Assembly (NCBI GenBank): GCA_903885795.1
Contig: CAISJV010000006.1
Coordinates: 1 to 64,000, forward strand
DNA length: 64,000 bases
Origin: an uncultured delta proteobacterium
Lineage (GTDB): Bacteria; Desulfobacterota; Syntrophia; Syntrophales; UBA8958
Reading direction: 5' to 3'
Shown one piece after another: positions 8,605 to 11,079 of the stretch; positions within the stretch are counted from its first letter, which is position 1; every line of letters begins with the position of its first letter. The position numbers and the translations under genes were made by a program. The notes under the pieces were generated by a model that saw nothing but the letters and a program-made list of their open reading frames with translations, ran no database searches and was not told the DNA's origin.

Positions 8605-9681
8605 ATGTATGCCGTCATTATGGCGGGAGGCAAGGGCTCCCGGTTCTGGCCGCGGAGTAGAAGCCGCCTCCCCAAACACCTGCTTGATATTTGCAGTGAA
8701 AAGACCATCATTCAGGAAACCGTGGAGAGGGTCCTACCCCTGACACCGCCGGAAAAGATACTTATTGTCACCGGGGCCAGCCACGCCCGCGAGCTGATCG
8801 GGCAACTCCCCCAAATCCCGCCGGAAAATATCCTGATCGAACCGGTGGGCCGCAACACCGCCCCCTGCATCGGCCTGGCGGCCCTCGTGGTCCGCAAACG
8901 GGCGGGAAATGCCGTGATGGCCGTTCTGCCCTCGGATCATCTGATTGCCAATGAGGAGCATTTCCGTCACGTCCTGGCGGCCGCCGCCGACATGGCCGCC
9001 CGGGGAGATCATCTGGTAACCATCGGCATCCGGCCTACGGGACCGGAAACGGGCTATGGTTATATCGAGGAGGGCGAACTCGCCGCCCGCGAGAGGGGTG
9101 AAGACATCTTCAGAGTCAAGTCCATTCGGGAAAAACCGGATGTTGAACTGGCGAAAACCTTCCTTGCCCAGGGGGGATTTTTCTGGAACAGCGGCATGTT
9201 CATCTGGCAGGCCGCGACCATTCTCAAGGAAATGGAGACCTCCCTGCCGGATATTTATGCGGGCCTTCTTGATATCGACAAGGCCCTGGACACCCCGGCG
9301 GAGGCAACGGTCATCGCCGACGTTTATGGCCGTTTTCGCTCCATATCCATTGATTATGGCGTCATGGAAAAGGCGGAAAATACCCTCGTCATTCCCGCTG
9401 ACTTCGGCTGGTCCGACGTGGGGAGCTGGGATGCCCTGTGGGAGGTTTCGGAAAAGGACGCCCAGGGAATCGCCGCCCGGAACCACGAAGGCCTGGTAAG
9501 CGTAAACTCCCGGAACTCACTAGTTTATTCCCCGAAGAAGCTGGTCGCCCTGGTAGATGTCGAAGACCTGATCGTCGTGGAAACGGACGACGCCCTGCTG
9601 ATCTGTAAACGGGGGGCCTCCCAGGAGGTGAAGAAGGTCGTGGAGGTGCTGGAAGAAAAAAAGAGGGAGGAATATCTATAA
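8605..9681 (+). CDS. manC: Mannose-1-phosphate guanylyltransferase
   Basis: A 358-aa nucleotidyltransferase converting mannose-1-phosphate and GTP to GDP-mannose for polysaccharide or glycan synthesis. The N-terminal signature M-A-G-G-K-G-S-R-F-W-P-R-S, the P-K-H/L site, the V-L-P-S-D-H motif, E-T-G-Y-G-Y-I-E and the late F-G-W-S-D-V-G-S-W motif are all present. The length fits the single-function type without the C-terminal phosphomannose isomerase domain. The gene stands alone, with an A-rich weak Shine-Dalgarno upstream. Confidence 0.92.
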   Translation: MYAVIMAGGKGSRFWPRSRSRLPKHLLDICSEKTIIQETVERVLPLTPPEKILIVTGASHARELIGQLPQIPPENILIEPVGRNTAPCIGLAALVVRKRAGNAVMAVLPSDHLIANEEHFRHVLAAAADMAARGDHLVTIGIRPTGPETGYGYIEEGELAARERGEDIFRVKSIREKPDVELAKTFLAQGGFFWNSGMFIWQAATILKEMETSLPDIYAGLLDIDKALDTPAEATVIADVYGRFRSISIDYGVMEKAENTLVIPADFGWSDVGSWDALWEVSEKDAQGIAARNHEGLVSVNSRNSLVYSPKKLVALVDVEDLIVVETDDALLICKRGASQEVKKVVEVLEEKKREEYL

Positions 9682-9906: not shown

Positions 9907-10377
9907 CTATCGTGACATGGTACCGCTGGAATCGGGGGAAGTATTGTAAAGAGGCAACTCCTGCGGTTGAGCGCTTATCACCGGGGGAGATCCCTGCTGT
10001 AACTGCGATCTAGCCGCCGGTGTAGATCCCGGAGGCGACGGCGCATTTTTCCCTGGGGAAACACCCTGCTGGAGAGGCGCATCCGGTTTGACATATACCG
10101 GTTTCCCCTTGATGGTGAAGCGTCCTTTTTCGAGGGCTTGGACGATTTTTGCCGTCGTGGTTTTCCTATCGTCAAAGGTGATGACGACAACCCCTTCCTT
10201 GGGCATCTCGAATTTGCTGACCCCGTCCGTAGCTCTCAGGATGGACCCCATCCTGGCCCGGTCCCCTCAGGAGCTGCAGCCGGGAACGCTTAATTGAACC
10301 GCTTTGGTATCGGCCCAGGCAAGCTGTCCGCTCCCCATCATGATAACCAAACACAGGGCGAAAATAAAGTTCTTCAT
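9907..10377 (-). CDS. Periplasmic HMA-domain selenoprotein (C-x-x-Sec), MerP-like
   Basis: Read through one in-frame TGA (10267-10269), this is a 156-aa protein. It has a signal peptide (1-22), a heavy-metal-associated fold (about 25-90) and a Pro/Gln/Ser-rich tail. The metal or redox motif is C34-S-S-Sec37 in the place where MerP/CopZ proteins carry C-x-x-C, after the conserved V-P-G. Downstream D-G-V-S-K and the V-x-I-T-F-D-D strand match HMA proteins, so both sides of the TGA belong to one domain. A hairpin of bacterial SECIS geometry follows the TGA. Standard gene calling would report only the fragment from 10251. Function is inferred: metal binding or thiol/selenol redox in the periplasm. 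No partner gene is adjacent. Confidence 0.85.
10237..10266 (-). promoter_or_regulatory. Candidate bacterial SECIS element
   Basis: Eleven nucleotides after the TGA begins a perfect 6-bp stem, CAGGAT/ATCCTG, closing a 7-nt loop GGGGTCC. The loop starts 18 nt after the TGA and opens with guanines. Known bSECIS elements place the apical loop about 16-37 nt from the UGA with a G in its first positions, so the geometry fits SelB-dependent recoding. Confidence 0.75.
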
Positions 10378-10482: not shown

Positions 10483-11079
10483 ATGAGTCTTATTCTTAGC
10501 CATCCCCTGATCCTTGCCTCCGCCTCTCCCCGCCGGGAGGAGCTGTTGCGCCTTTTGGGGCTGGATTTCCAGGTTATCCCCAGCCAGACGGACGAGACAT
10601 TTTTCATTAGCGAAAAACCTGGCGAACACGTCCTGAGATTAGCAGAAAACAAGGCCTACACCATCGCCCAGGTTTATCCCCAAGCATGGGTTCTGGGGGC
10701 CGACACTATTGTGGTCATTGACGGTGAGGTCCTGGGCAAGCCGGCCGATTCATTCGAAGCAGGGCGGATGCTTGAAAAACTAAGCGGCCGTACCCACGAG
10801 GTCTTTACGGGCTTTGCCCTTTTGCGCCTGTCCGGACACGTCGCCATCAAGGAAGAGGTCCGGGCCGCCGTCACCTTTCGTAATATTTCCGAAGATGAAA
10901 AAATGTGGTATATAAAGTCTCCCGAACCCTATGACAAGGCCGGGGCCTACGCCGTTCAGGGTTTAGGGGCCTTCTTCATCAGGGAGATTCAAGGCTCCTA
11001 CACTAATGTCATGGGATTGCCCCTCTGTGAGGTCGTGGATGCTTTGAAAAGGACCGGAGCACTGGTATTCGACATATGA
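10483..11079 (+). CDS. maf: Maf-family nucleoside triphosphate pyrophosphatase
   Basis: A 198-aa Maf/YhdE-type house-cleaning enzyme hydrolysing dTTP/UTP and modified nucleotides. It has the N-terminal L-A-S-A-S-P-R-R-E-E-L motif, the Q-T-D-E site and the G-A-D-T-I-V catalytic aspartate. It opens a tightly coupled run: its stop overlaps the next start (ATGA at 11076), so co-translation with the YggS gene is likely. Confidence 0.92.
   Translation: MSLILSHPLILASASPRREELLRLLGLDFQVIPSQTDETFFISEKPGEHVLRLAENKAYTIAQVYPQAWVLGADTIVVIDGEVLGKPADSFEAGRMLEKLSGRTHEVFTGFALLRLSGHVAIKEEVRAAVTFRNISEDEKMWYIKSPEPYDKAGAYAVQGLGAFFIREIQGSYTNVMGLPLCEVVDALKRTGALVFDI

Follow-up and report, generated by a model that had tools for sequence, protein, structure and literature searches.

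A predicted CxxU selenoprotein with an HMA fold in the bacterial order Syntrophales

The closest described relative of the protein reported here is MerP (TIGR02052; structures 1osd and 1afi). Like MerP, the protein encoded in the window (the whole 64,000-nucleotide stretch of DNA that was analyzed) has a hydrophobic N-terminal leader followed by one HMA domain. MerP is also its best NCBIfam profile (E value of 1.9e-9), yet the score of 37.9 bits is far below the cut-off of 92.55. Unlike the window protein, MerP carries cysteine where the window protein is predicted to carry selenocysteine (Sec). Location in a mer operon is not shared either: no metal genes and no mer genes adjoin the window gene, whose neighbors are only a Maf gene, a ManC gene, and a YggS-like gene.

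Several selenoprotein families are related in motif or architecture. NF041115 (UxxU_metal_bind) is, like the window protein, a small HMA-like selenoprotein. Its motif is given as UxxU in the accessible part of a 2026 inventory of 119 prokaryotic selenoprotein families (PMC13188914), whereas the window protein has CxxU and reaches 18.7 bits against a cut-off of 95. NF045683, a MerT/CopZ fusion-like heavy metal transport selenoprotein, likewise has an HMA-type part, but it is a 235-position fusion model with a cut-off of 375 bits; the window protein is unmatched at an E value of 0.01, and four of 29 family members match at this threshold (best 3.2e-7). The window protein falls under every NCBIfam cut-off. 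The same part of the inventory lists a UxxC E1-E2 cation ATPase and a C/SxxU MerT, in which Sec also occupies motifs of heavy-metal proteins, but these belong to other families (TIGR01525 and PF02411), and the ATPase motif differs from CxxU as well. It contains no CxxU HMA or MerP entry.

Two selenoproteins named “Mercuric transport protein MerP” are listed in Table 2 of a 2008 study of the GOS metagenome (PMC2398784). These are possibly earlier Sec-containing relatives of MerP, and are known here by name, without motif or sequence. The accessible part of a 2006 survey describes 19 selenoproteins of Syntrophus aciditrophicus, and a CxxU HMA protein is not among them (PMC1794560). A term search of the deep-Sep report (PMC12013277) gave no passage on HMA, MerP, mercury, heavy metals, or CxxU, and a literature search by title and abstract returned nothing on a CxxU HMA selenoprotein family. 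The family appears to be undescribed in the family libraries searched; an earlier sighting among the GOS “MerP” proteins, in the 2007 Olavius algarvensis selenoproteome, or in two papers by Haft and colleagues is possible.

The original prediction was that a single frame in the window is interrupted by one TGA alone, and this was borne out: the frame encodes 156 residues, with Sec as residue 37 (Table 1). Also as foreseen, the gene is truncated by the ORF lister, which reports only 10251..9907 (114 aa). The predicted leader is present as a hydrophobic N-terminus that, judged by eye, has an AxA-like end before residue 23, and the protein is thus probably exported or periplasmic. The domain that follows has ∼70 residues and includes the loop VPGCSSUGDRAR. 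Among the 29 rows of profile A1, a tail with the same ending as that of the window protein is common to L017–L020 only. The C-terminal end LPLYxTSPDSSGTMSR (window 9910–9957) is common to four close relatives, and the length of the linker that precedes it varies. A DNA pattern of CxxU codons, spacing, and hairpin, composed from relatives, has one match in the window with at most three mismatches, where 0.01 is expected and one of 100 shuffled sequences matched. The pattern was not found in the viral contigs searched, an absence that is hardly informative.

Table 1. Coordinates of the window gene, its parts and flanking genes, and of fused relatives (L numbers denote loci with their own numbering).
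Feature	Position	Strand	Basis or remark
Predicted selenoprotein gene	9907..10377	-	156 codons plus TAG stop, one TGA predicted to be read through
TGA, predicted selenocysteine 37	10267..10269	-	In frame from ATG 10377 to TAG 9909-9907
Cys34 codon (TGC), first residue of CxxU	10276..10278	-	
Hydrophobic N-terminus, probable signal peptide, residues 1-22	10312..10377	-	Sequence inspection; family consensus AxAAER ahead of domain
HMA (beta-alpha-beta-beta-alpha-beta) domain, residues 24-96	10090..10308	-	AlphaFold2 model, Foldseek/VIA, profile
bSECIS-like hairpin	10237..10255	-	Arms 10255-10248 and 10244-10237
P/Q/S-rich tail	9910..10089	-	Low model confidence; ends LPLYNTSPDSSGTMSR
Maf gene (PF02545), divergent flank	10483..11079	+	Pfam; frequent neighbor in relatives
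ManC-type mannose-1-phosphate guanylyltransferase gene (PF00483, PF22640), convergent flank	8605..9681	+	Pfam; frequent neighbor in relatives
Sec-HMA + PKD + rhodanese fusion	L104 1777-4845	-	1023 aa
Sec-HMA + PKD + rhodanese fusion	L072 2246-3751	+	
Sec-HMA + PKD + rhodanese fusion	L091 2-1243	-	
Sec-HMA + PKD + rhodanese fusion	L094 4933-6694	+	

If the TGA is read as Sec, the host should possess the decoding machinery, and the original prediction named the absence of selB or selC as grounds for doubt. All four genes, selA, selB, selC, and selD, were found in the host genome (4.0 Mb, 95 contigs). The tRNA-Sec scores 75.6 bits and is called SeC with anticodon tca by ARAGORN, while SelA, SelB, and SelD score 603.2, 381.8, and 392.4 bits, respectively. 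The host SelD (L137, G000:C35:3662-4591) is itself a predicted selenoprotein, its gene having a single TGA in frame, and this suggests that the organism makes use of selenocysteine decoding. Among 60 relatives, SelB is matched in all at an E value of 0.001 and in 55 above the cut-off, and its presence is therefore uninformative as a correlate.

A census of the host's order was conducted with profile A3 over 155 genomes; two duplicates (L029, L032) and a locus from another order (L176) were removed ahead of the final count. Matches were found in 107 genomes and comprise 120 rows, all of which were translated except G051 (an 887-aa frame). The original prediction had proposed looking for Cys or TGA at residue 37 in homologs, and 112 of the 120 rows have TGA in this loop: 95 are CxxU, 15 are CxU, one is YxxU (L038), and one lies at a contig edge (L175). 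Two TGA rows from G282 (L116, L215) appear to be fragments of a single gene, each cut by a contig end. Cys replaces Sec in four rows, two as CxxC at the CxxU positions with a TGT codon (L169, L170) and two as CxC in the CxU register (L171, L173). The two genomes that encode the CxxC form each have a Sec-containing paralog as well (L150, L191). A different residue at this codon, which had been named as a sign of a pseudogene, was seen in two rows: L035 (∼1480-1707, + strand) has Leu instead of the Cys and Trp (TGG) instead of the Sec of CxxU, with no recognizable N-terminus or signal peptide, and L172 has neither Cys nor Sec at the motif. L035, from the same genus as the window gene, is a decayed copy whose hairpin still pairs by eye. 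L174 is a classical CxxC protein.

Sec is retained without Cys in L038 and in the more distant relatives L119–L121 and L176; the loop of the last is GGU. L119, L120, and L121 are HMA-like selenoprotein genes with the loop PGVVUGST, and the 95-aa protein of L119 (1495-1779, - strand) is below every NCBIfam cut-off listed. L132 (1477-1779, + strand) carries UxxU in a classical GMxUxxU register and scores 80.8 bits to NF041115 (cut-off 95).

An earlier search of 60 relatives matched 35, two of them (G013, G032) via the tail only. Of its 43 rows, 37 have one or more TGA codons in frame, and in the translated loci, L035 excepted, the TGA lies in the same loop. The gene is also present in G044 (locus L043). 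In a phylum sample, profile A1 matched 88 of 395 genomes, a number that is not a count of the Sec-HMA family, because many of those rows are stop-free and the TGA-less rows that were translated are classical CxxC or ATPase-like proteins. For all seven gene pairs compared (NG86), dN/dS is <1 both before the TGA (0.34–0.65) and after it (0.16–0.62). Genome-wide reading of TGA as Trp was considered and rejected: TGA is the final stop in 11 of 29 genes (by eye), Cys is the replacement in four rows, and TGG is found at the loop position only once, in the decayed L035.

Bacterial SECIS (bSECIS) elements are hairpins located just 3′ of the UGA, with a G among the first loop bases. The hairpin of the Sec-HMA genes has both features. 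In the window gene it starts 11 nt after the TGA, as originally described, whereas the 6 bp assigned to it were too few: the arms comprise eight complementary bases separated by a 3-nt gap. Covariation was examined in 27 of 29 genes picked by protein similarity rather than by hairpin, leaving out the CxU genes L041 and L045. The seven pairs starting 11 nt after the TGA are formed in 96.8% of cells, compared with 86.7% after shuffling, and sliding the pair partners by 1 to 3 bases reduces pairing to at most 50.8%. Two-sided changes are present in six of the seven pairs. Within the five-base loop, the second base (G23) is G in all 27 genes. Arg in the 5′ arm is encoded by AGG in 25 of the 27, whereas AGG accounts for just 22 of the 151 other Arg codons of these genes.

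The hairpin is also widely retained in the census. Six or seven of the seven pairs are kept in 111 of 112 TGA rows, whereas in-frame control slides on the same genes have a mean of 2.6 pairs and reach 6 in 31 of 3342 cases. The remaining row, CxxU locus L228, has two of seven pairs, and its match spans profile positions 5–39 only. In the four Cys homologs the hairpin is weakened to 4 or 5 of 7 pairs, and in CxU genes it lies one codon further from the TGA. The folding energy of the window hairpin alone is unremarkable (z of −0.33 for a 42-nt stretch and −1.92 for the 25-nt core). The hairpin is convincing through comparison, not by its own stability.

An AlphaFold2 model was generated from a 56-sequence alignment in which Cys was substituted for Sec. 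Its secondary structure is E24-30 H39-49 E53-60 E63-69 H75-84 E94-96, with Sec37 preceding helix 1. Block means of pLDDT are 89–92 over residues 41–90, 79 over the motif-bearing residues 31–40, and ∼49–61 past residue 100; the pTM of 0.50 is probably due to the loose tail. The top Foldseek match is oxidized MerP (1osd; E value of 1.4e-4, TMt 0.76). VIA-align was run on residues 22–99, a method unable to exclude other folds, and the 50 matches listed are all HMA-type or metallochaperone chains (Z of 9.6–11.6), with rmsd values of 1.4–2.9 Å in 48 and of 6.6 and 8.7 Å in two. As modeled, the domain is an HMA fold (ferredoxin-like βαββαβ). The window protein does not reach the Pfam HMA (PF00403) gathering score (12.5 versus 24.8), and PF00403 matches 18 of the 56 members of A3 at E values of 0.01 or below (best 5.6e-10).

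One structural element of the original prediction was not supported, namely that Sec37 occupies the position of the second Cys of MerP and HMA proteins. When Cys is written for Sec, profiles align CxxU with the classical CxxC, but only at the cost of inserting two residues and deleting two others. With the motif columns masked, all nine classical CxxC homologs align gap-free in the loop and with higher scores (for example, 43.7 versus 41.0), and thus Cys34 and Sec37 most likely sit two residues closer to the N-terminus than the classical Cys pair. The test covered nine homologs from four families of one phylum sample, with MerP itself outside the comparison. By all nine comparisons, the window protein lacks a classical-register CxxC metal site in the β1-α1 loop. 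In CxU genes, gap-free counting places Sec on the classical first-Cys position.

To survey names, neighbors, and fusions, 59 loci were collected by a DNA pattern scan of named GTDB genomes, and all translate by eye to the Sec-HMA family; 55 of these also served for the structure alignment after four truncated ones were dropped. Since the pattern includes CxxU and the hairpin, these loci are not evidence for either the TGA or the hairpin. Their titles name Smithella, Syntrophus, Smithellaceae, Syntrophaceae, Syntrophales, Syntrophobacterales, Deltaproteobacteria, Desulfobacteraceae/Desulfobacterales, and Desulfohalobiaceae, along with the broad labels Pseudomonadota and Proteobacteria. One locus (L104) comes from Desulfonema magnum 4be13, whose chromosome is finished. 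The domain runs on into PKD-like sequence in six loci (L067, L072, L091, L094, L097, and L104). These are Desulfobacterales by title or genus, with L067 labeled only Proteobacteria. A Pfam rhodanese domain is present in four of the five fused loci scanned (Table 1), with L097 the one without it. Judged by eye, three of the fused loci have Cys in the rhodanese loop, and the rhodanese of L094 lacks it.

The nearest upstream gene is Maf-like in 39 of the 59 loci (53 have an upstream ORF), and the nearest downstream gene is ManC-like in 36 (54 have a downstream ORF). These clusters were named by eye and not every neighbor was named. The Sec-HMA gene is therefore usually solitary. Four of the 59 loci (L061, L067, L077, and L088) have a piece of a copper/heavy-metal P-type ATPase gene upstream on the same strand. 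In L067 (1-8000) this piece is 276 bp from the PKD-fused Sec-HMA gene, and beyond it, on the other strand, are genes for OEP, HlyD with a heavy-metal-binding domain (HMBD), and a CusA/CzcA-family transporter (1107.9 bits; cut-off 701.45). No metal family was found among the scanned neighbors of fused L091, L094, L097, and L104, or of unfused L070, and the scanned neighbor of fused L072 gave no match.

The proposed function can be outlined as follows. With the hairpin 11 nt downstream as their guide, SelB and tRNA-Sec would read the UGA as Sec37, and the signal peptide would direct the protein across the inner membrane. There, the MerP/CopZ-like HMA domain would display the Cys34/Sec37 pair on the loop that precedes helix 1, and the mixed thiolate/selenolate pair may bind a soft metal or similar electrophile, such as Cu(I), Hg(II), or the like. 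We assign a probability of roughly 60% to this statement as a whole, that is, to an exported Sec37 selenoprotein whose HMA domain uses Cys34/Sec37 to bind a soft metal or similar electrophile.

That the TGA-containing gene encodes a selenoprotein is, by contrast with the full statement, almost certain. An HMA-fold CxxU selenoprotein is strongly supported by the presence of selA, selB, selC, and selD, by the TGA and Cys rows of the census, by the covarying hairpin, and by the fold; UGA conservation, Cys/Sec exchange, and hairpin covariation each find their support in comparison. If the TGA were instead an ordinary stop, the frame would be a pseudogene or two unrelated pieces, as the truncation by the ORF lister, the decay of L035, and the unremarkable folding of the single sequence might suggest. 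TGA in 112 of 120 rows with Cys at the same place in four, dN/dS <1 on either side of the codon, and a hairpin that covaries make this extremely improbable, and it was rejected. Two-sided changes in six of seven pairs, the near-fixed AGG codon (25 of 27), and the retention of only 4–5 of 7 pairs by the four Cys homologs also speak against the idea that the hairpin simply reflects how the conserved R-I/M-G-S-I-L helix is encoded and is no selenocysteine signal. Its arms do lie on conserved residues, its energy alone is weak, and no Rfam family matches it, but this explanation is very improbable and was rejected as well.

The role of the Cys/Sec pair is less certain. The HMA fold together with the efflux-gene context makes binding of a soft metal or electrophile by the thiolate/selenolate pair most likely, and the metal-efflux genes near some relatives raise this reading and lower its close rival. 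In that rival, the same selenoprotein would use Cys34-Sec37 as an extracytoplasmic redox or sulfane-sulfur relay (selenenylsulfide/persulfide), with the HMA fold a mere scaffold. Several observations that count against metal binding point in this direction: the window gene has no metal genes alongside; the pair appears to lie outside the classical register; some relatives keep Sec without Cys; and the rhodanese fusions (four of five loci scanned among the six with a PKD-like continuation, three with a loop Cys) hint at sulfur chemistry. Further points against the preferred reading are that most other loci lack adjoining metal genes as well, that the Pfam HMA score is below its cut-off, and that L035 and L172 have neither Cys nor Sec. 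The motif loop is also the less surely modeled part of the domain, with Cys standing in for Sec. Yet the fold is that of metal carriers, and we know of no HMA-fold oxidoreductase. Moreover, L097 has PKD without rhodanese, L094 has rhodanese without the loop Cys, fused L067 adjoins copper/heavy-metal efflux genes, and the window protein has no PKD or rhodanese fusion. We regard a redox or sulfur relay as possible but rather unlikely. A broader conjecture, which we consider doubtful, is that a metal-carrier fold was turned into an extracytoplasmic selenoprotein family in which Sec shifted within the loop, giving CxxU, CxU, loops with U but no Cys, and relatives with UxxU in the classical register. 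The shifted CxxU would then have ceased to act as a classical metal carrier and would serve as a selenol redox or sulfur-relay center that is built into PKD-rhodanese proteins in Desulfobacterales.

These findings add a well-supported selenoprotein family that is widespread in one bacterial order and is also present in the finished chromosome of Desulfonema magnum; the start reported by the ORF lister for the window member falls only after Sec. Within one small fold, the family provides natural variants with Sec, with Cys, or with the residue lost, along with two Sec registers, and what selenium contributes at a soft-metal or thiol site can therefore be put to a direct test. The family may also be relevant to how syntrophic and sulfate-reducing anaerobes conduct their copper, mercury, and sulfur chemistry.
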